Below, in pieces: positions 32,981-43,981 of a stretch of 64,000 nucleotides of DNA. Source of the DNA: Rhodanobacter lindaniclasticus (lineage in GTDB: Bacteria > Pseudomonadota > Gammaproteobacteria > Xanthomonadales > Rhodanobacteraceae); contig NZ_MWIO01000032.1 in NCBI RefSeq assembly GCF_004799035.1, positions 1 through 64,000 on the forward strand, read 5' to 3'. The translations under genes and the position numbers were made by a program. The stretch's first letter is position 1. The number at the start of each line of letters is the position of its first letter. The notes beneath the pieces are model-generated. The model was not told where the DNA came from, made no database searches, and worked only from the letters and a program-made list of their open reading frames with translations.

Positions 32981-33733
32981 TCAGTCCTTGATGGCCTTGA
33001 CGCGCGCCACGATGCTGCCGCTGCGGCTGTCGCGAAGGCTCCACGAGTCGACGTGTGCCACCACGGTTCCGCCGCCGGGGCCCGGCAACACCTTGCGGAT
33101 GTGCAAGGTGGCATCGAGCAGCAGCGAGTCGTTGCCGATCCTGTCGACGATCGCCTGCGCCTGGTCTTTTGGCACGCTCCAGCTCTGCGCGGTCAGCGCG
33201 TTGTCGAACTTGAGGTTCACGGTCTGGCCCTGCGCCTTGAAGGTGTAGACCGCGCCGGGCGAGAGCGCACCCACGGTGAACTCGCCGTAGGTGGGGTCGT
33301 AGCTGCTCAGGCCGGCCTGGAGGGTGAGTTGCAGCACGCCCACGCCGCGCACCGCGGCCAGGCCGGCCTCGAACTCGGCGCGCACGGCGGTGCGGCGCGC
33401 GGCCTTGTCGGCACCGGGTGCGTAGCGCACGCGTTGATCGTCCTCCACCCATTGGTCGACCGGCGGCGCGATGCCGGCCAGGTCGTAATAGAGGAACACC
33501 ATGGTGGCGTTGTCCGGGTCGTTCAGCGTGCTGCTGCGGCCGGCCAGGCCGCCGGCATCGGCGCCGGACGCCGCGGCGCGGACCGGTTGCGCCGGCGTTG
33601 CCGCGGCCGGTTCGCCCGTCGCCGTGGCGGCGGTCGGCGCCGCTGGCGACTTGCCGCAACCGCCCAGCAACAGCGCGGCCAGCGCGAGGCCGAGCGGAAT
33701 CGTGCGGGTGCGGGAGATCGGATTCATGCGCAT
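32981..33733 (-). CDS. lipoprotein of unknown function (envelope operon, gene 4)
   Basis: A 250-residue lipoprotein. The lipobox is ALLLGGC, followed by an Ala/Pro/Thr-rich tether of about 40 residues that would span part of the periplasm. The C-terminal domain includes YTFKAQGQTVNLKFDN, ATLHIRKVLPGPGGG and VAHVDSWSLRD. I recognise no family. GAGG nine bases before the ATG at 33733 favours this start over the ATG at 33727. It is 11 bp from the stop of the upstream gene and 47 bp from the next, so it is clearly in the operon. Confidence 0.8.
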   Translation of the reverse strand: MRMNPISRTRTIPLGLALAALLLGGCGKSPAAPTAATATGEPAAATPAQPVRAAASGADAGGLAGRSSTLNDPDNATMVFLYYDLAGIAPPVDQWVEDDQRVRYAPGADKAARRTAVRAEFEAGLAAVRGVGVLQLTLQAGLSSYDPTYGEFTVGALSPGAVYTFKAQGQTVNLKFDNALTAQSWSVPKDQAQAIVDRIGNDSLLLDATLHIRKVLPGPGGGTVVAHVDSWSLRDSRSGSIVARVKAIKD

Positions 33734-33744
33734 GGCCGCGTACC

Positions 33745-34722
33745 TCACAGTTGGGGCGCCTGGGCGTTCTTGCCCGCCTCGCGCACCTGCTGCGCGCGGC
33801 GTTCGGCATCCATCGCCTGCAGTCCCTGCTGGGTGTCGGTCAGTGCCTGGTAGCCACCGGCCTGGTCGACCACGCCGACCTGCAGGTACTGCGCCAGCGC
33901 CGGATTGCCGCGCAGCGGAACCACGTTGGCAGCCACCACCAGGCCGCAGTCCGCCGACAGGCTCACGCCGCTGTCCGGATCGGCGGCGCCGCGGCACTGG
34001 TTGAACAGCGGCGAGGTCTCGGTGATCAGGCGCCCCCGTGGGTCGTAGGCCCAGCGCAGCTGGTGGGTGTCGCCCTGGTCGTTGCGCTCGGTGGACGTGC
34101 CGTATTTCGCCAGCAGGGCCTGCTCGACGCTGTCCACGGTCGGATTGCGATCCTGCTCGAACCATTGCTCGCGGGCCACGCTGATGGCTTTTTCCTGGCC
34201 CGGCATGCCCATCGTGGCGACGAACCATTTCGACTGGCCCGGCTGCATGTCCTGGCGGACCGCATTCATGCCCCGCGCCATCGCATCACGCTCCATCTCC
34301 TGCACGATCTGGCGGCCGCTCTTGTGCACCCGCGGCTCGGCGAAGCGCGCGCTGAAGCCCTGGCGGAGGGTCTGCCCGAAGGTGTTGATCTCGAAGCCGC
34401 GACTGTTTTCCGGCTTGACCACCAGCAAGGGACCGCTGCACATCACCGCGTTGGCGGCCTGCTCGTAGCTCATGCCGGGACGCACGCCGACGATGTCGTC
34501 CACCGGCGTGCCGGGGGCGTTCGGCGCGGCATCGACCGGGCAGTCGACATCGCCTCGCGCGGCGGCGGCCACGTCCTCGGCCGATGCGTCATCGGACGGC
34601 GCCGCCGCCTGGGCCGCGGCACGGCCATTGCCTCCTGCGGTTGCCGTACCGGCCTTGTCCGCGCCGCAGGCGCAGAGCAGGCCGGCGATCAGCAGGAGAC
34701 CTGCAAGCTGACTGGTGTGCAT
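33745..34722 (-). CDS. lipoprotein of unknown function (envelope operon, gene 3)
   Basis: A 325-residue lipoprotein. The signal and lipobox (LLLIAGLLCAC) precede an Ala-rich acidic linker and a domain with PGTPVDDIVGVRPGMSYEQA. The last part of that segment resembles the helix that opens small outer-membrane-assembly SmpA/BamE folds (GMsxxeV). This is only a resemblance. The C-terminus is polar and alpha-helical (DAERRAQQVREAGKN). GAGG nine bases before the ATG at 34722 sets the start. It sits in the middle of the operon, 11 bp before gene 4. Confidence 0.78.
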   Translation of the reverse strand: MHTSQLAGLLLIAGLLCACGADKAGTATAGGNGRAAAQAAAPSDDASAEDVAAAARGDVDCPVDAAPNAPGTPVDDIVGVRPGMSYEQAANAVMCSGPLLVVKPENSRGFEINTFGQTLRQGFSARFAEPRVHKSGRQIVQEMERDAMARGMNAVRQDMQPGQSKWFVATMGMPGQEKAISVAREQWFEQDRNPTVDSVEQALLAKYGTSTERNDQGDTHQLRWAYDPRGRLITETSPLFNQCRGAADPDSGVSLSADCGLVVAANVVPLRGNPALAQYLQVGVVDQAGGYQALTDTQQGLQAMDAERRAQQVREAGKNAQAPQL

Positions 34723-34778: not shown

Positions 34779-35831
34779 TCACGCATCCGGCGGCGTGTCG
34801 TTGCCTGCGCCGCTGCCGTGCTCGCGCGCCATCTGCGCGGCGCGGGCCTGGGCCGCGCGCGCCTTCTGCTGCACGCGTTCCGCCTGCGTGCGCATCTGCG
34901 CTTCGAGAGCCGCCGGGTCGAGGTCGCGCGCGGTGTCGTTGAAGATCACCACCCAGCCGCTGGCGTAGACCACCAGGCCCATGCTGAAGGCGAGGAAATA
35001 CAGCACCAGCGAGGAGGCGCCCGCCGCCCGCAAGCCGGGCAGTGTGCCGAGCAGGCCACTGCCCATGCCGCCCAGGGCGCCGAGCATGGCGTTGCCGTAG
35101 CCGCCCGGCTGGCCGTAGCCGGCGTGGCCGATGTGGACCATCTGCTGCAGCGCGCCGGAGGTGGCAACGCCGAGCGAGACGATCAGCACGGCAAGCGCGA
35201 TCACGAACGCCGCCATCAGGTTGAGCAACACGCCGCGCAGGGCGGTGTCGAACAACCGCGAGCGAATCACCAGCATCGTGGTCGCGACGATGCCGAACAC
35301 CGAGCGCCCGTTGCAGGCAGCCACCGCCGCCAGCGGCACGGCGATGAACAGCAGTGCGTACAGCGCCACGCCCACCACCAGGGCCACGATCGGAAACACC
35401 ACATAGTTGAGCGGCGGCCCGATGCCGGGGATCTGGGTGACCAGGAACAGCGCGCCGGCGGCCAGCAGCAACACCAGCATCGCGAGGCACAGCAGCAGCA
35501 TCGCCAGCAGCACCTTGATCGCGGCGAAGAAGCCGCTGATCGCTGCGGCCGCGATGCCGGCGGGCCGCTGTCCGCGACCGGCCTGCAACTGACGCAGCGT
35601 CACGGCGCAGTAGCCGGCTTCGCCGACCAGCCAGGCGAACACCATCAGCAACAGGCCGAAGGTCGAGCCGACGCTGCCGGCGGCGAAGCCGGCCGTGGCC
35701 AGCGCCGTGAGCGCCAGCGCCAGGATTGCCGCCAGCGCGACCAGGGCAAGGTTGGCCGGGCTGCGCAAGGCCTCCAGTGCGGAGAGGAAACTGCCGGGTC
35801 CGGCAGCGCTTGCAGTGGTTGGCGTGGACAT
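34779..35831 (-). CDS. multi-spanning membrane protein (envelope operon, gene 2)
   Basis: A 350-residue inner-membrane protein with six or more hydrophobic segments (for example LALVALAAILALALTALATAG and VVFPIVALVVGVALYALLF) and a cytosolic, Arg/Ala/Gln-rich helical tail (MRTQAERVQQKARAAQARAA). GGYGNAMLGALGGMGSG is a glycine-rich loop. GAGG eight bases before the ATG at 35831 favours it over the GTG at 35840. No family is recognised. It precedes two lipoproteins and one secreted protein, so it may anchor them or act as their transporter; this is inference. Confidence 0.8.
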   Translation of the reverse strand: MSTPTTASAAGPGSFLSALEALRSPANLALVALAAILALALTALATAGFAAGSVGSTFGLLLMVFAWLVGEAGYCAVTLRQLQAGRGQRPAGIAAAAISGFFAAIKVLLAMLLLCLAMLVLLLAAGALFLVTQIPGIGPPLNYVVFPIVALVVGVALYALLFIAVPLAAVAACNGRSVFGIVATTMLVIRSRLFDTALRGVLLNLMAAFVIALAVLIVSLGVATSGALQQMVHIGHAGYGQPGGYGNAMLGALGGMGSGLLGTLPGLRAAGASSLVLYFLAFSMGLVVYASGWVVIFNDTARDLDPAALEAQMRTQAERVQQKARAAQARAAQMAREHGSGAGNDTPPDA

Positions 35832-35877
35832 CGGGATCACCTCGTGGCGGATGGACGTTCAACGGATACGACGGGGG

Positions 35878-36129
35878 TCACTCGCGGCAGGCCACCTGCA
35901 GGGTGTTGCCGTGGCAGCGCAGCCGGTCGGCGGTGGCCGCCTTGCCGTTGACTGCGCACACGGCACCCATCTGGTGCACCAGCTCGCGGTCGCGGTTCAT
36001 GGCGCTGATCCGCGCCTCGTTGCAGCCGCTGGCATCGACATCGACCCAACTGGTCCGTTGGCCGCATCCCGCGGCGCAGGCCAGGATCAGCAACAGCGAT
36101 GCAATGGGCGGATGCGGCAGGGAGGGCAT
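35878..36129 (-). CDS. small Cys-rich lipoprotein (envelope operon, gene 1)
   Basis: An 83-residue lipoprotein, first gene of the operon that diverges from the wHTH-kinase gene. The lipobox is LACAAGC. The mature part is about 60 residues with four further cysteines (SGCNEAR, AVCAVNG, LRCHGN and VACRE), so two disulfides are likely. The ribosome-binding site before 36129 is weak. It resembles small periplasmic ligand-binding or inhibitor proteins in general layout, but no family can be named. Confidence 0.72.
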   Translation of the reverse strand: MPSLPHPPIASLLLILACAAGCGQRTSWVDVDASGCNEARISAMNRDRELVHQMGAVCAVNGKAATADRLRCHGNTLQVACRE

Positions 36130-36203
36130 GGCAGGCTTCGCGGCAGTGGCAGTGGGCGAAGCCGATTGGCGCACGTCGGCGGCAGCCAAGTCGTCACGGC
36201 GGT

Positions 36204-36221
36204 CTAACCGATCACTAACGG
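36204..36221 (+). promoter_or_regulatory. 11-bp-spaced direct repeat in the divergent envelope/kinase promoter
   Basis: CTAACCG (36204-36210) and CTAACGG (36215-36221) are direct repeats with an 11-bp step, the layout bound by OmpR/PhoB-type winged helices on one face of the helix. They lie in the 163-bp gap between the envelope operon (start 36129) and the wHTH-kinase gene (start 36293). Confidence 0.5.
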
Positions 36222-36292
36222 CGGCGGCGATCGTTGCGGGGCGCGGCTCGCGCCGCACCGCCATCTGCGGCATAGTTCCCGTGGGGGTGCCT

Positions 36293-39031
36293 ATGCAGCC
36301 GGTCGAACAGGGCGACGAACAACCGCTTTATCGGTACGCCTTCGGCAACGTCGAGTTCGACGAGGCGCGCGGCGAGTTGCGCGTCGACGGCCAGTCGGTG
36401 GAACTGGAGCAACGCCCGCTGCAGGTGCTCGCCTGCCTGCTGCGTCGCGCCGACGAGGTGGTGCCGCGCGAAGAGTTGTTCGCCACGGTATGGGGTGCGC
36501 GGCCCACCGTGGACAACGTGCTGGCCAACGCGGTCGCCAAGCTGCGCAAGGCATTCGGCGCCGACGGGCACGGGCGCATCGTCAACCTGCCGCGGGTTGG
36601 TTATCGCCTGCGCGGGCCGGTCGAGCGCACGGTTTCCGGCCGGCGCCTGCACAGCCTGCTGGCGCTGGCAGCCGGGCAGAGCGTGCCCGGGCGCGAACAC
36701 TTCCGCCTGCGCGAGCAGCTCGGGCCGGCGCGCGGCAACGAGGTCTGGCTGGCCCGCCACGACAAGACCGGCGAGTTGCGCGTGTACAAGTTCAGCGCCG
36801 ATGGCGAGCGCCTGGCAGCGCTCAAGCGCGAGGCCACGATCCACCGGCTGCTGCGCGAGAGCCTGGGCGGGCGCGACGACTTCGTGCGCGTGATCGACTG
36901 GAACTTCGCCACCGCGCCGTTCTACCTGGAATGCGAATACGGCGGCGATGACCTGGCGCGCTGGGCTGCCGGCTCGCCCGGCCTGGCCGGGCTGGATCTG
37001 TCGCAGCGGCTGCACCTGTTCCTGCAGATCGCCGATGCGATCGCCGCAGCGCACGGGGTCGGCGTGCTGCACAAGGACATCAAGCCGGCCAACGTGCTGA
37101 TGCGACCAGCCGGCGACGGCTGGCAGCCGCGGCTGGCGGATTTCGGCGCCAGTCGGCTGCTGCAGCCTGAGCGGCTGCAGGAACTTGGCATCACCGCGCT
37201 GGGTCTGACCCTTACGCAGGCGGCCGGTGATTCGAACGCCACCCCGCTGTACCTGGCGCCGGAGCTGCTGGCGGGCCAGCCGCCGACGGTGCAGAGCGAC
37301 GTCTATGCGCTGGGGCTGATGCTGTATCAACTGGTGGTGGGCGACCTGCGCAGGCCGCTGGCGCCCGGCTGGGAAGCCGACGTCGACGACGAGCTGCTGT
37401 GCGAGGACATCGCCGCGGCGACCGACGGTGCGCCGGCGCGACGGCTCCGCAGCGTGGCCGAGCTGTGCGCGCGATTGCGCCGGCGCGAGGCGCGGCAGGT
37501 CGAACGCAGCCGGCTGCGCGAGGCCGAGGCGCGTGCGCATCGTGCCGAGCAGCGCCTGCAGCGCAGCCGCGCACGACGGCCGTGGATTGTCGCTGCCGCG
37601 CTGCTGCTGCTGGTCGGCCTGGCCACCAGCCTGTGGCAATTCCAGCGTGCCCGCGTGGCCCGCGACGAAGCGCAGCGGCAGGCCGCACTGGCCACCGCCA
37701 CCAATCAGTTCCTCAACGAGGATCTGCTGGGGGCCGGCATCGGCGGTGACTCGCCGGCGTGGTACGAGAAGAACCCCCGCCTCGGCGACATCCTCGACGC
37801 CGCGGCCACGCGCGTGGACCAGCGCTTCGGCAAGGCGCCGCTGCTGGCGGCCGACCTGCACCAGACCCTGGGGCGCGCGTACCGCAGCACCGGCGATTAC
37901 CGCAAGGCGCTGGACCAGTTGCTGGCCGCGGCCGGGCTGTTGCGCCACAAGCTTGGCCGCGCCGACGAGCGCAGCCTGCTGGCCGAGTACGAACTGGTCG
38001 TGATGCAGGCGCACATGTCGCAGTTCAAGCAGGCCACGACGCGCCTGGACGAAGCCGATGCGGCGGCCGGCGTGCGCCGCCAGGCGGTGTCGGAGGTGAG
38101 CCTGCGCTCGCATCTGGCGCGTGGGGACCTCGCCTACCAGCAACTGCAGGTACAGGTGGCGCTGGACAACTATCGCGCTGCGCTGACCATGCAGAAGATC
38201 CTGCATCCGGACGATGCCTTGATGTCGGCCCACCTGCTGCTGGGCATTGCCGGCTGCCAGCTGCGCCTGGACCGGGCCGGCGAGGCCGAGCGGATCGCCC
38301 GCGAGGTGCTGGGAGGGCCGGCCTACACGCAGCAGCGGGTGGGCAGGGCAGTGCTGGCGCTGGCGCACTCGCGGCTGGGCGACGCACTGCGCGCGCAAGG
38401 CCGCCATGCCGAGGCCATCGCGGCCACGCAGCGGGCACTGGCAGATTACGAGGCGACGCAGGGACCCAGTGGGCAGGGCACGATCACGGCGCTGAGTTCG
38501 CTGGGTTACCTGTACTCGTTGAGCGGCGACGATGCCAGGGCGCTGGTGGTCCAGCGCGACGTCTACCGACGCGCGCTGGCACGCTGGGGCGCCCGCCACC
38601 AGTACACCCTGGTGGAGCAGCTCAACCTTGGATCGCAGGAGCAGGAGGCCGGTGACCTGCCCGCCGCGCTGGCCGACCTGCGCGCGGCCGAGGATGGCCT
38701 GGTGGCGGTATCGGGCGAGCGCAGCCCCACGGTGCAGGCAGCCCGCGTCGCCCGCGCCGACGTGCTCAGCCAGCTGGGTCGTCAGGCCGAGGCGCTGGCC
38801 CTGATCGAGCATGTCGATCCGGCGGCCTACCAGGCCAGCACCGCCGACCCCGGCCGCGCCTCCGTGCTTGGCGCGCTGCACGCGCAGATCCTGCTGCGCA
38901 TGGGGCGGCGTGCCGAGGGCACGGCACGGATGCAGCAGGCGCTGCGCGAGATGAGCGCTGCCGGCGTGGCGGAGGAGGAAATCGCCCGCTACCGCAAGGA
39001 CCTGCCCGAGAACGCGGTGGCCGCGCAGTGA
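36293..39031 (+). CDS. fused OmpR-type wHTH, Ser/Thr kinase, membrane helix and TPR-like protein
   Basis: A 912-residue multi-domain regulator. Residues 12-108 form an OmpR/ToxR-type DNA-binding winged helix (ELEQRPLQVLACLLRRADE, TVDNVLANAVAKLRKAFG and NLPRVGYRL). Residues about 136-395 form a Hanks-type kinase: degenerate glycine loop GPARGNEVW, Lys166, Glu180, HKD at 260-262 with Asn267, DFG at 283-285 and APE at 322-324, so it looks active. An arginine/glutamate coiled stretch leads to one membrane helix (residues 430-449). The last 460 residues are TPR-like helices, presumably periplasmic. GGGGG upstream supports the ATG at 36293. It is divergent from the envelope operon, its likely target. 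Confidence 0.85.
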   Translation: MQPVEQGDEQPLYRYAFGNVEFDEARGELRVDGQSVELEQRPLQVLACLLRRADEVVPREELFATVWGARPTVDNVLANAVAKLRKAFGADGHGRIVNLPRVGYRLRGPVERTVSGRRLHSLLALAAGQSVPGREHFRLREQLGPARGNEVWLARHDKTGELRVYKFSADGERLAALKREATIHRLLRESLGGRDDFVRVIDWNFATAPFYLECEYGGDDLARWAAGSPGLAGLDLSQRLHLFLQIADAIAAAHGVGVLHKDIKPANVLMRPAGDGWQPRLADFGASRLLQPERLQELGITALGLTLTQAAGDSNATPLYLAPELLAGQPPTVQSDVYALGLMLYQLVVGDLRRPLAPGWEADVDDELLCEDIAAATDGAPARRLRSVAELCARLRRREARQVERSRLREAEARAHRAEQRLQRSRARRPWIVAAALLLLVGLATSLWQFQRARVARDEAQRQAALATATNQFLNEDLLGAGIGGDSPAWYEKNPRLGDILDAAATRVDQRFGKAPLLAADLHQTLGRAYRSTGDYRKALDQLLAAAGLLRHKLGRADERSLLAEYELVVMQAHMSQFKQATTRLDEADAAAGVRRQAVSEVSLRSHLARGDLAYQQLQVQVALDNYRAALTMQKILHPDDALMSAHLLLGIAGCQLRLDRAGEAERIAREVLGGPAYTQQRVGRAVLALAHSRLGDALRAQGRHAEAIAATQRALADYEATQGPSGQGTITALSSLGYLYSLSGDDARALVVQRDVYRRALARWGARHQYTLVEQLNLGSQEQEAGDLPAALADLRAAEDGLVAVSGERSPTVQAARVARADVLSQLGRQAEALALIEHVDPAAYQASTADPGRASVLGALHAQILLRMGRRAEGTARMQQALREMSAAGVAEEEIARYRKDLPENAVAAQ

Positions 39032-39295
39032 TTGCCGACGGCTTGTTCGCGAACCCGCGAAAACCGACCAGGCATCCGGACGTCCAGACTGCCGACTGGC
39101 GTGAATGGGCGGAGTGCGACATGGTATCCAGACCTCGACTCCTGCCGGGCGCACGCTGTGCGCGCGGCCAGTGCAGTCGATGCAACTGTTTTCGCGACGT
39201 CGCCAGAGGCGGCGCGCGATCGGGACCGGCAGCAATCCAGCGCGCGGTCAGGCAAGGCGAACCACCGCAACACCCACCTGTACAGGAGATGGAAG

Positions 39296-40072
39296 ATGAA
39301 CACCCGTTTTGAACGTTCCGGCCCGCTCACCGAACTGACCAGCTACCCCCAATGGGCACAGGACATGGTGGCCGATTGCGAAGCCGCCAAGCAGGGCGTC
39401 GTGCGGCACGAGATGTGGGATCTGATGAGGGAGGCTTCGCTCAGCCACACGGCGACGCGTCACTTCATGGTCGGCATCTGGCCGGTGATCGAGCGTTTCC
39501 CGGCATACATGGCGCTGAGCCTGCTCAAGACCCGCTTCGGCCGCAGTTCCGGTGACAACCTGGCCCGGCGCTGGCTGGTGCGCAACATCCGAGTGGAGCA
39601 GAACCATGCCGAATATTGGCTCAACTGGGCCGAAGGCGCGGGGGTCGCGCGCGAGGACGTGCTGAATGGCCGCGCACCCCACGGCACAGGAACGCTGGCG
39701 GACTGGTGCGAGGAGATCTGCGCCAGCGGTTCGCTGGCGGCGAGCGTCGCGGCCACCAACTATGCCGTCGAGGGGGCCACCGGCGAGTGGTCGCAGCGGG
39801 TATACGAAAGCAAGGCCTATGCCGAGAGCTTCGCGCCGAAGGAACGTGCCGGCAGTTTGCGTTGGCTTCAACTTCACGCCGCTTATGACGATACCCATCC
39901 GTGGGAGGCGCTGGAGATCGTCTGCACGCTGATGGGGACGACCCCGGCCGCCCACGACGTGGAACATATTGCCAGTTGCATCAAGCGCAGCTATGTAAGC
40001 ATGCGTATCAGCATGGATCACTGCATCGACGCGCGTTACGAGTTGGAGGCCATGAGGGAAGCCGCCGCCTGA
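39296..40072 (+). CDS. undA: UndA-like diiron enzyme, 1-alkene-forming fatty acid decarboxylase
   Basis: A 258-residue heme-oxygenase-like protein. It matches UndA of Pseudomonas, which turns medium-chain fatty acids such as laurate into terminal alkenes (1-undecene) and CO2 with O2. The six iron ligands I recall for UndA fall at the same numbers here: Glu101 and His104 (RVEQNHAEYW), Glu159 (NYAVEGATGEW), and His194, Asp198 and His201 (LQLHAAYDDTHPWEALE). The N-terminus also agrees (SGPLTELTSYPQWAQ). AGGAG seven bases before the ATG at 39296 is clear. A PAS-GGDEF-EAL gene follows 70 bp later. The 264 bp upstream hold nothing I can support beyond a TTCGCG/CGCGAA hairpin at 39046-39061. Confidence 0.85.
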   Translation: MNTRFERSGPLTELTSYPQWAQDMVADCEAAKQGVVRHEMWDLMREASLSHTATRHFMVGIWPVIERFPAYMALSLLKTRFGRSSGDNLARRWLVRNIRVEQNHAEYWLNWAEGAGVAREDVLNGRAPHGTGTLADWCEEICASGSLAASVAATNYAVEGATGEWSQRVYESKAYAESFAPKERAGSLRWLQLHAAYDDTHPWEALEIVCTLMGTTPAAHDVEHIASCIKRSYVSMRISMDHCIDARYELEAMREAAA

Positions 40073-40104: not shown

Positions 40105-40143
40105 GTGGGTCACACGGCACCAGTCATGGTAGAAGGAGCGTGA
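40105..40143 (+). other. possible 12-codon leader peptide before the GGDEF-EAL gene
   Basis: A GTG at 40105 is preceded by AAGGAG six bases upstream and opens a 12-codon frame (GTG to TGA) ending at 40143. Its TGA overlaps the next start as TGATG (40141-40145). It could couple translation of the downstream gene to ribosomes leaving undA. It may equally be chance. Confidence 0.3.
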
Positions 40144-42899
40144 TGCGCACTTCTCAAACCACCTTGCAAAAGCCTTTGTCGCGGCGGCTGATGCCGCTGG
40201 CGTATGCGCTGATCGCGATGGTGGGGCTGATGCTGGCCCTGACCTGGGGTGCGTTGCAGATCCAGATCACTCTCGCCGGTTTCCTCAACGGCGAGAGCCT
40301 TTGGTCCAAGGCGCAGAAGCAGTCGGTGATCGACCTGGAAGCCTATGCGATCAGCGGCGACGCCGTGGACCTGGCCGGCTTCAAGCGCCACTACGCGGTG
40401 GTGCTCTCCGATCGCTGGGCCCGCGACGCGATCGCCTCGGGCCAGTTCGACCACGACAAGGTCGCCCAGGCGTTCGCCCGAGGCAGCGTGATCCCCGATG
40501 CCATCCCCGGGATGATCTTCATCCTCCAGCATTTTTCGTCGGCGCCGCACATCAGCGAGGCGCTGCGCGCCTGGTACTCGGTCGACGATGCCATTACCGA
40601 GCTGGACGAGATTGCCGGCGAGTTGCAACGCGCCTACGCGGCCGGTGGCCTGCAGCCGGCCGAACAGCTCCGCCAACGCAGTCGCATCCACGAATTGAAC
40701 CGTTTCATCGAGCCGCGCACCAACGTCTTCTCGGTCGAGGTGGCGCGTGGCGCCTCGTGGGTCGGCAAGCTGCTCTTCGGTGGCGTGGTCGCGGTCACCC
40801 TGGTCGCCGTGCTGCTGTGGCTGGGCATGGCACGGCGCATCCTGGAAAGCATCCGCGGCAGCGAGGAGCGCTACCGGCTGCTGTTCGACAGCGCGGCCGA
40901 CGCGATCGTGATGATCGACGAGGGCAGCGGGCGCATCCTCGACGTGAACCGCACCGCGGCGGCATGGACCGGGCGCAGCGCGAAGGAGCTGATCGGCGAC
41001 CGCTACGTGCACCTGTTCCTGCAGCCGCTGGCTGGCCAGCAGGCGGGGCGAGCCGCCACCAATGCACTGTTGGCCGCCGACGGCAGCACCCGCCCGGTGG
41101 AAACGCAGACCAGCGTCGCCCGCTGGGGCGAGCTGCCGGTTTGCCAGGCGATCATCCGCGACATCTCCGAGCGGGTGGCGATGGAACAGGAGCGCCGGGT
41201 GGCAGCTGAGGCGCTGGCCAGCATCGCCGAGGGTGTGGTCATCGCCGACGCGCATCAGCGGATCACCTCCACCAATGCGGCGCACACCGAACTGACCGGC
41301 TTCAGCAGCCTGGCACTGCAGGGCCGGCGGTTGGGTGACACGCGCCGCCTGCCGGACGGACGTGCGCTGCCCAAGGCCATCTGGGACGAGGTGGCTGCCG
41401 GCGGCAACTGGATCGGCGAAGTGGTGAGCACCCGCGCCGACGGCAGCAGCTATCCGGAACACCTCAGCCTCAGCGCGATCCGGAACGGCGAGGGGCATGT
41501 GACGTACTACGTGGCGGTATGCACCGACATCCACGAAGCCAAGGCCAACCAGCGCCGGCTGGAGCACCTGGCCCGGCACGATCCGCTGACCGGCCTGGTC
41601 AATCGCGCCGAGTTCGAACGCTATTGCACGGAGGCGATCGCCCAGGCCGAACGCGAGCGGCTGGCGGCGGTGGTGCTGTTCATCGACCTGGACGCGTTCA
41701 AGATCGTCAACGACAGCTACAGCCATGCGATCGGCGACCGCCTGCTGGTGAAGGTGGGTGAGCGGATCAGCCGGCAGCTCTCCGACGGCGACGTGGCCGG
41801 ACGCATCGGCGGCGACGAGTTCACCGTGCTGCTGCCGCGGCTGAGCCTGCGTGAGGATGCGCGGGCGATCGTCAATCGCCTGCTGTCGACACTGTCCGAG
41901 CCACTGGTGCTGGACGATTACGAGGTCGTGCTCACCGCCAGCATCGGCGTGGCCGGCTATCCGCTGGACGGCAATGATGCGGCCACCCTGATCGCCAACG
42001 CCGACGCCGCCATGTACGCGGCCAAGACCGAGGAGCGCAATGCGTTCCGTTTCTACACGCCGATGATGCACGCCGACAACCGGCGCCGCCTGCAGCTGGC
42101 GACCGAACTGCGTCAGGCGCTGAGCCGCGGCGAGTTCCGCCTGGTGTTCCAGCCCAGCATCGAACTGGGCAGCGGGCGCATCGTGGCGGTGGAGGCGCTG
42201 CTGCGCTGGCAGCATCCGGAGCGTGGCGAGGTGCTGCCTGGCGAGTTCATCCCGGTGGCGGAGAACCTGGGCCTGATCCGGCGCATCGACGAATGGGTGC
42301 TGCAGGCCACTTGCGCCCAGATCCAGGCCTGGGACCTGGCCGGAGTGCCGCCGATCCGCGTGGCGGTGAACATCTCCGCGCGCTGGTTCGGCCATCCGTC
42401 CTTCGTCGACGGCGTCAGCCGCACCTTGCAGTCGCGCCGCGTGTCGCCGCACCGCCTGCTGCTGGAGATCACCGAGAGCGCGATGCTGCGGCTGGGCGAC
42501 GACACCCAGCGCACCATGCAGACGCTGGACATGCTGAACATCGACGTGGCCATCGACGATTTCGGCACCGGCTACTCCTCGATGGCTTACCTCAAGCTGC
42601 CGGCCGTCACCTATCTGAAGATCGACCGCTCCTTCGTCACCGGCCTGCCCGGCGACGCCAACGACGCGGCGATCACCGAGGCGATGCTGGCGATGTCGCG
42701 CAGCCTGGGCCTGATCACCATCGCCGAAGGCATCGAGACCGAGGCGCAGCACGAATTCCTGCTGCGCGCCGGCTGTGTCGAAGGGCAGGGCTACCTCTAT
42801 TCGTATCCCTTGCAGGCCGAAGAAATCCAGGCGCTGCTCAGCCCCAACCAGCAGAGCGGCTCCCCCCGGCTGCGGCTGGTGCCGCCACGGCGCGGTTGA
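40143..42899 (+). CDS. membrane c-di-GMP enzyme, 2xPAS-GGDEF-EAL
   Basis: A 918-residue inner-membrane signalling protein. A first helix at about 16-40, a periplasmic region, and a second helix near 210-230 form the sensor. Two PAS domains follow (about 240-345 and 350-465). The GGDEF cyclase motif is intact at 556-560, and the EAL motif at 684-686 (VEALLRW) with NISARWF, DDFGTGYSS and AEGIET complete, so phosphodiesterase activity is likely. The inhibitory RxxD site before GGDEF is missing. AAGGAG four bases before the ATG at 40143 supports this start over the GTG at 40140. It follows undA and may be co-transcribed. Confidence 0.9.
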   Translation: MRTSQTTLQKPLSRRLMPLAYALIAMVGLMLALTWGALQIQITLAGFLNGESLWSKAQKQSVIDLEAYAISGDAVDLAGFKRHYAVVLSDRWARDAIASGQFDHDKVAQAFARGSVIPDAIPGMIFILQHFSSAPHISEALRAWYSVDDAITELDEIAGELQRAYAAGGLQPAEQLRQRSRIHELNRFIEPRTNVFSVEVARGASWVGKLLFGGVVAVTLVAVLLWLGMARRILESIRGSEERYRLLFDSAADAIVMIDEGSGRILDVNRTAAAWTGRSAKELIGDRYVHLFLQPLAGQQAGRAATNALLAADGSTRPVETQTSVARWGELPVCQAIIRDISERVAMEQERRVAAEALASIAEGVVIADAHQRITSTNAAHTELTGFSSLALQGRRLGDTRRLPDGRALPKAIWDEVAAGGNWIGEVVSTRADGSSYPEHLSLSAIRNGEGHVTYYVAVCTDIHEAKANQRRLEHLARHDPLTGLVNRAEFERYCTEAIAQAERERLAAVVLFIDLDAFKIVNDSYSHAIGDRLLVKVGERISRQLSDGDVAGRIGGDEFTVLLPRLSLREDARAIVNRLLSTLSEPLVLDDYEVVLTASIGVAGYPLDGNDAATLIANADAAMYAAKTEERNAFRFYTPMMHADNRRRLQLATELRQALSRGEFRLVFQPSIELGSGRIVAVEALLRWQHPERGEVLPGEFIPVAENLGLIRRIDEWVLQATCAQIQAWDLAGVPPIRVAVNISARWFGHPSFVDGVSRTLQSRRVSPHRLLLEITESAMLRLGDDTQRTMQTLDMLNIDVAIDDFGTGYSSMAYLKLPAVTYLKIDRSFVTGLPGDANDAAITEAMLAMSRSLGLITIAEGIETEAQHEFLLRAGCVEGQGYLYSYPLQAEEIQALLSPNQQSGSPRLRLVPPRRG

Positions 42900-43003: not shown

Positions 43004-43981
43004 ATGTCCAGCAACCCTTCCATTCCTGACGGCAGCAAGTTCACCAGTCCGCAGGGCACGCGTGCGGTCAAGGGCGGCCAGAAGCCCAATGCGCACAGCC
43101 ATGAACCCGACGTCAGCCGCAAGCCGCCGTGGCTGCGCGTGAAGCTGCCCAGCGGCGCGCGTTACGAGGAAGTGGCCGAGATCGTGCGCACGCACCAGCT
43201 CAACACCGTGTGCGCCGAATCCAAGTGCCCCAACATCGCCGAGTGCTGGGGCCGCGGCACCGCCACGCTGATGCTGATGGGCTCGGTGTGCACGCGCGCG
43301 TGCAAGTTCTGCTCGGTCTCCACCGGCAACCCGAACGGCTGGCTCGACCCGCTGGAGCCGGCCAAGGTGGCCGACGCGGTGGCGCTGATGGGGCTGAAGT
43401 ACGTGGTGCTCACCTCGGTGGATCGCGACGACCTTGCCGACGGCGGCGCCGCCCACTACGCCGCCTGCGTGAAGGCCATCCACCAGCGCTCGCCCGACAC
43501 CGCGGTGGAGGCGCTCACCCCCGATTTCGCCGGCAACCATGCCAGCGTCGCCACCGTGCTCGACGCCGGCCTGGCCACCTATGCGCAGAACCTGGAAACC
43601 GTGCGCCGCCTCACCCATCCGGTGCGCGACCCGCGCGCAGGCTATGAGCAGACCCTGGGCGTGCTGGCCTTCGCCAAGCGCCACGCGCCCGGCACGCTCA
43701 CCAAGACCAGCCTGATGCTTGGCCTGGGCGAAACCGACGCCGAGATCGAGCAGGCGCTGGACGACATGCGCGAAGCCCGGGTTGACGTGGTCACCATGGG
43801 CCAGTACATGCGGCCCAGCCCGCACCACCTGCCGGTGGAGCGTTTCGTCACCCCGGACGAATTCCGTGCCTATCGCGAACTGGCGCTGGGCAAGGGCTTC
43901 GTGGAAGCGGTCGCCGGGCCGCTGGTGCGTTCGAGTTATCGCGCCGAACGCGTGCTGGAGCACAACAACCTGGGGCTGTGA
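43004..43981 (+). CDS. lipA: lipoyl synthase
   Basis: A 325-residue radical SAM enzyme inserting two sulfurs into octanoyl chains on lipoyl domains. Both clusters are present: the auxiliary one with Cys70, Cys75 and Cys81 ([12 protein letters not shown]), and the radical SAM one with Cys96, Cys100 and Cys103 (CTRACKFC). The end [18 protein letters not shown] is typical. No ribosome-binding site is evident. Its usual partner lipB is not next to it; the upstream gene is the GGDEF-EAL protein, so lipA stands alone here. A candidate Anr box precedes it. Confidence 0.95.

Follow-up and report, generated by a model that had tools for sequence, protein, structure and literature searches.

A predicted membrane-bound regulator carrying a winged helix, a Ser/Thr kinase domain and a TPR part, and its candidate triple-repeat operator, in Rhodanobacter lindaniclasticus

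The window, a stretch of 64,000 nucleotides from Rhodanobacter lindaniclasticus, holds on its forward strand an uninterrupted frame of 912 residues without an internal stop (frame translation). Its gene and the parts of the encoded protein are the following:

36293..39031, forward strand: gene for a 912-residue protein with a winged helix, a kinase domain, a membrane helix and a TPR part (ORF reading, Pfam, AlphaFold2 model)
36323..36643, forward strand: OmpR/CadC-type winged helix, residues 11-117 (Pfam Trans_reg_C, model, phmmer)
36515..36556, forward strand: recognition helix, residues 75-88 (model, ungapped CadC alignment, covariation)
36692..37492, forward strand: Hanks Ser/Thr kinase domain, residues about 134-400 (Pfam, model, residue conservation)
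37583..37642, forward strand: single transmembrane helix, about residues 431-450 (hydropathy, charge; model helix 431-483)
37781..38995, forward strand: TPR solenoid, residues 497-901, predicted to be periplasmic (Pfam, model)

A first-pass annotation made from the letters alone had read this frame as an OmpR-type winged helix fused to a complete Hanks kinase, one membrane helix and a TPR-like helical sensor part, and had proposed a domain search and a structure prediction as checks. Together with hydropathy they bear out all four parts. In Pfam, Trans_reg_C (residues 33-106) scored 51.3 bits against a cut-off of 26.2, Pkinase (140-352) 76.4 against 31.7 and TPR_12 61 against 30.1, the last with four stretches at E values up to 1, which makes the helical part a TPR array. 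The AlphaFold2 model of the window protein, built with 54 sequences, reached a mean pLDDT of 85.9 and a pTM of 0.53, so that the single parts are confidently modelled and their mutual arrangement is not given by the model. It contains the winged helix at 11-117, a kinase body from 134 that ends near residue 400, a long helix at 431-483, around the most hydrophobic 19-mer of the protein (432-450), and TPR helices at 497-901. Using phmmer the winged helix was matched to OmpR-family chains including CadC (5ju7, E 2.8e-6) and PhoB (1gxp), and among the 25 NCBIfam models listed the best one stayed far under its cut-off (73.6 vs 460 bits). Two further OmpR-type winged helices lie in long frames (918 and 744 aa) elsewhere in the same genome (C21:41420-41632 and C34:7838-8053).

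In order to judge the integrity and the spread of the fusion we collected relatives, which were encoded on at least 354 of 593 pattern stretches, and kept 80 loci. From residue 15 of the query or earlier, 77 of these 80 relatives align and thus span both heads; among the three exceptions two reach a contig end (L042, L069) and one aligns only over residues 166-907 (L112). With the frame intact in relatives, 79% identity to the window protein being found in one from R. spathiphylli, a frameshift or an artefactual fusion between the heads, which the first-pass annotation had named as what would speak against its reading, is ruled out. For residue-level comparison 53 of the 76 full-length relatives, thinned by hand, were aligned together with the window protein. 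Pkinase and Trans_reg_C were both called in all 54 members and TPR_12 in 53; since the search profile itself had both domains, this shows that the fusion is stable, not how frequent it is. The relatives belong to several bacterial classes and include Rhodanobacter, Dyella, Pseudoxanthomonas, Luteimonas, Rubrivivax and Roseateles as well as Hyphomonas, Pseudokordiimonas, Parahaliea, Steroidobacter and Terriglobia. Among 398 genomes of the order, 54 gave a match with an E value of 1e-40 or below when at most two first-look candidates were scored per genome, so that misses are possible; in 50 of those 54 the best match starts no later than query residue 19. With a limit of E 1e-60 the profile matched 4/369 genomes drawn from the class and 6/398 drawn from the phylum, and within the genus the gene is patchy with 2/25 genomes (own genome included in all three counts). 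The earlier description of two heads on one membrane protein is borne out, and "unusual" is to be read as patchy but widespread. In a search of plasmids 368 records gave a partial match and none held 80% of the query in one place. The kinase parts of L083 and L090 are at zero distance and yet carry different MAG labels (one Thiobacillus), so that some of the MAGs may be misnamed. In L005 (604-3960) and L006 (1096-3597, reverse strand) about 170 extra residues separate the winged helix from the kinase; by motif we took this segment to resemble a degenerate class III cyclase, a reading that was dropped when Pfam called no cyclase in L005, the member scanned.

The glycine-rich loop of Hanks-type kinases has the form GxGxxG. 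In the window protein family the catalytic lysine, the glutamate, HxD, the asparagine, DFG and APE are present and the GxGxxG is not; instead the loop is degenerate (LGxxxG[S/N]EV), with glycine at position 144 in 30/54, at 148 in 35/54 and at 149 in 6/54 members. The residues K166, E180, H260, D262, N267, D283-F284-G285, T317, A322-P323-E324, D336 and R384 are identical in 54/54, confirming the catalytic motifs named previously. The top Foldseek match was the bacterial Hanks kinase Stk1, with PknG, PknI, PknA and PknB within the first ten, and protein kinases make up most of the 50 matches listed. One might suspect from the degenerate loop that the domain has lost its phosphorylating activity and serves a CadC-type regulator as a structural switch or as one that senses ATP; we regard this as very improbable, as an unchanged set of catalytic residues in every member would be unlikely without selection for catalysis. 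Judged by conservation the kinase looks active. It is one of four Pkinase genes in its genome. Within the activation loop, serine or threonine occupies position 301 in 53/54, 306 in 52/54 and 317 in 54/54 members, and no serine or threonine of the winged helix is invariant across the 54, the best conserved ones being position 58 (47/54; proline in the window protein), position 98 (46/54; asparagine in the window protein) and T72 (43/54). Because of this difference a phosphorylation site in the kinase appears likelier than one in the DNA-binding head. Control would then more probably run through the oligomeric state or through phosphorylation of the activation loop than through the head being phosphorylated directly.

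Regarding the orientation in the membrane, positive charge is found on both sides of the membrane helix (mean net +3.1 and +1.1 over the 54 members), the inner side being the higher one in 44/54. The most hydrophobic stretch falls within residues 380-480 in 49/54 members, and in 11/54 the number of strong hydrophobic segments is other than one. With charge on both flanks, five members with the peak elsewhere and these eleven exceptions in segment count, a topology with winged helix and kinase inside and the TPR part outside the membrane is likely, not proven.

Upstream of the gene lies a tandem repeat, followed by a row of genes on the opposite strand:

36193..36221, forward strand: triple direct repeat, proposed operator, with 7-bp half-sites at 36193, 36204 and 36215 (period 11 bp)
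35878..36129, reverse strand: small predicted lipoprotein of 83 aa, first divergent gene (ORF clustering; cluster of five loci, window included)
34779..35840, reverse strand: membrane-protein-like frame in the divergent row, judged by eye, no Pfam family
33745..34722, reverse strand: lipoA, predicted lipoprotein (profile search of loci and order sample)
32981..33733, reverse strand: lipoB, predicted lipoprotein adjoining lipoA (profile search of loci)

Direct repeats with a period of 11 bp are typical of OmpR-family sites such as those of PhoB, and this is the arrangement found here. When up to two mismatches are allowed, the pair pattern is found twice in the window, both times in this repeat, with 1.09 expected. 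Taken by itself the window thus shows no excess over chance, and the evidence for the repeat comes from the relatives. Pairs of named half-sites at 11 bp occur in 50/76 upstream regions, compared with 0/71 downstream and 0/72 far-upstream controls, and at other spacings in 0 or 1. As the half-site classes, the repeat width and the period had been chosen after inspection of the sequences, we also ran a letter-free test over periods 8 to 16: at period 11 a triple score of at least 15 was reached in 52/76 upstream regions vs 8/71 downstream and 7/72 far-upstream stretches, and 40 dinucleotide shuffles gave a mean of 6.1 and a maximum of 11 out of 76. At the other periods between 8 and 16, 2 to 15 upstream regions reached this score, and the control stretches also went up to 20/72 at period 9 and 23/72 at period 12, codon-like multiples of three. 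The 26/76 upstream regions without a named pair include those of members from Acidobacteria, Steroidobacter, Hyphomonas and Rubrivivax. A promoter scan of 35850-36320 found none, and shuffles were also expected to give none, so that this result carries no information.

The letters of the half-sites follow the recognition helix of the adjacent gene. Residue 79 is asparagine in 29/29 loci whose box reads AAACG (3) or TAAC followed by G or C (26) and threonine in 21/21 loci with TCAAG, so that box type and residue 79 match in 50/50 loci, or 43/43 after thinning at 90% identity. Among the TAAC boxes, C precedes TAAC in both half-sites in 16/17 N75 loci and G or A in both in 8/8 K75 loci, with a mixed base in the single Q75 locus. 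Two exceptions occur with N75: in L089 one of the two TAAC half-sites is preceded by A, and an extra half-site of L088 reads ATAACC. Additional relatives from the genome search, several of them conspecific with loci already counted, gave the same pairing wherever a box was found. Residues 75, 78, 79, 82 and 85 align without gaps with CadC His66, Thr69, Gln70, Ser73 and Arg76 (phmmer; CadC numbering counted by hand). For CadC, docking has placed His66 and Gln70 in base-specific contacts, and function is impaired by an alanine substitution at each of these five positions (PMC5430869). We propose N75 and N79, and also A78 and A82, as putative specificity residues of the window protein. On a tree reconstructed without the winged helix, by a quick method with long-branch warnings, there are only two switches of box type (sign test p 0.5), one of which goes back to an A-containing box and at the same time to N79, and K75 likewise needs only two changes. 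The 50/50 do not represent 50 independent events for this reason, and the putative specificity code is consistent while resting on few independent events. Left out of the tree were L107 and L115, which have one stop in the extended reading, and L112, L042 and L069, whose starts are cut or garbled; L108 has no frame with the kinase motif.

In genome-wide searches, the only exact match to the pair pattern in the own genome (4.06 Mb) is the one at the kinase gene. The pattern also sits at the kinase in 4/4 other genomes with TAAC boxes, with one additional site in one of them, and in three TCAAG-box genomes the TAAC pattern is absent from two and found at one unrelated site in the third; the reversed pattern as control gave three matches over these seven genomes. 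A narrower TCAAG pattern that includes the spacer letters occurs once each in five TCAAG-box genomes, always at the kinase, is absent from two TAAC-box genomes and was never found reversed. The site is scarce elsewhere in the ten genomes checked, with about one strong site per genome. A larger regulon was considered: at up to one mismatch the own genome holds three places, one of them the operator, vs 12 for the reversed control, and no second target is claimed. That the repeat belongs to another regulator, for example a PhoB/OmpR response regulator of the host, with the winged helix binding elsewhere, would agree with its typical period and with the small number of switches behind the helix-box agreement; against this stand the box type, which tracks the helix of the adjacent gene in every locus with a named box, and the few further matches in the genomes searched, and we give this explanation little credence. 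The predicted binding of the repeat by the winged helix of the kinase protein is strongly supported by these comparisons.

The divergent genes upstream of the kinase are common to several classes, as seen by clustering of the flanking frames. At E 1e-4, 26 of the 80 loci match lipoA (one weakly), 21 lipoB and 19 lipoC, with models that were seeded from the very loci they counted. In a crude lipobox scan 41/72 loci have a divergent candidate within 1.5 kb upstream, a few of which resemble membrane helices rather than lipoproteins, compared with 2/72, 3/69 and 1/69 for the other combinations of strand and side. Another 20 loci, chosen mostly for lacking lipoA, were inspected by eye: 12 have a divergent frame that carries a lipobox or starts like a signal peptide, 2 have one that is membrane-anchored, and the remaining 6 show neither. 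Within the order lipoA was found in 13/54 kinase-bearing vs 0/344 other genomes (Fisher p 1.3e-12 for genomes that are not independent), with at most five first-look candidates scored per genome and misses again possible. In 11 of the 13 it is encoded on the strand opposite to the kinase, no more than 2.1 kb away, and in two it is on another contig. Neither lipoA nor lipoB reached the cut-off of a Pfam family, and for the lipoA model (pLDDT 73.4) Foldseek returned nothing at E under 0.001. The product of lipoC is a small predicted lipoprotein of about 100 aa from the same divergent region (L047 2841-3143, reverse strand, and 18 other loci, mostly Pseudoxanthomonas and Luteimonas). The K75 clade (L086 3976-5598, reverse strand; L093, L110, L077) has divergent genes for products of about 540 aa, with signal-like starts and sequences that are similar by eye. 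On the other side, a frame with a Haem_oxygenas_2 domain (iron-containing redox enzyme; 39032-40072, forward strand) follows directly on the kinase gene. An operon with it was rejected, since among the listed clusters of at least four loci no downstream one joined the window to relatives, and downstream genes common to nine Luteimonas/Thermomonas-type loci were taken as ordinary synteny. From translation motifs we take the next two genes of the window, both on the forward strand, to encode a GGDEF-EAL protein (40140-42899) and lipoyl synthase (43004-43981).

Taken together, we consider the protein to be probably a one-protein system for sensing the envelope, in which a regulator with a kinase built in acts from the membrane on its own envelope locus. 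The TPR part, which most likely lies in the periplasm, would sense the envelope state or a partner protein and thereby alter the oligomeric state, the cytoplasmic kinase would autophosphorylate on its activation loop, and two or three copies would place their winged helices side by side on the triple 11-bp repeat, whose occupancy would control the divergent lipoprotein genes and probably the kinase gene too. Kinase activity, the direction of regulation, the TPR ligand and the coupling between phosphorylation and DNA binding are the steps that we infer; that the kinase gates DNA binding, a possibility which the first-pass annotation had raised as well, is suggested by the stable fusion together with the separate-protein precedents PknH-EmbR and AfsK-AfsR. 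Of the previously proposed one-protein pathway that both phosphorylates and binds DNA, the DNA-binding half is backed by a conserved adjacent site that follows the recognition helix, and an active kinase by conservation only. The winged helix might instead merely autoregulate its own locus while the kinase phosphorylates other proteins and the two heads stay uncoupled, as the variable serines and threonines of the winged helix would allow and as a single strong site per genome, leaving room for a separate kinase output, would also permit; we find this rather unlikely given a fusion kept in all members over several classes and recurring neighbours that are lipoprotein-like envelope genes. As a tentative extension of the envelope-sensing reading, the protein might be a self-contained Ser/Thr analogue of hybrid two-component systems: it is conceivable that the kinase mainly phosphorylates its own protein, that the winged helices recognise a single dedicated triple operator in each genome and that the periplasmic TPR part senses the lipoproteins encoded by the divergent genes, which would close a one-locus feedback loop.

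Like CadC/ToxR-type regulators the window protein has an OmpR-type winged helix at the N-terminus, presumably on the cytoplasmic side, a predicted single membrane helix and a putative C-terminal sensor part, but unlike them it has a Hanks kinase, about 260 residues long, placed between winged helix and membrane helix. The passages available from a census of transmembrane regulators name response-regulator, histidine-kinase and Y_Y_Y types as added domains, and they also describe the hybrid two-component regulators of Bacteroides, which likewise combine sensor, kinase and DNA-binding part on one membrane protein (PMC10269533); these use histidine/aspartate chemistry whereas the window protein has a Ser/Thr kinase fold. 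PknH-EmbR and AfsK-AfsR also link a Hanks kinase in one pathway with an activator whose DNA-binding domain is of the OmpR or trans_reg type (PMC4601284, PMC1262709), but as two separate proteins with FHA, BTA or NB-ARC parts instead of one membrane protein. The transmembrane Hanks kinase PknS of Xanthomonas citri also directly controls a transcription factor, its target EcfK being a separate ECF sigma factor, and the abstract of that report makes no mention of a DNA-binding domain on the kinase (PMC13147305). Among the matches listed in open-licence full text we found no earlier description of this fusion of a Ser/Thr kinase to a DNA-binding head, and in one novelty-related search none of the 20 best-ranked entries holds Trans_reg_C. 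One-protein hybrid systems with histidine kinases are already known.

In the precedents found, bacterial Hanks kinases reach gene expression via separate substrates. A family with its own DNA-binding head, a predicted operator, a putative specificity code and candidate target genes would make kinase-to-promoter signalling testable with one protein and one 29-bp site, and it may provide a first context for lipoprotein families without a Pfam match.
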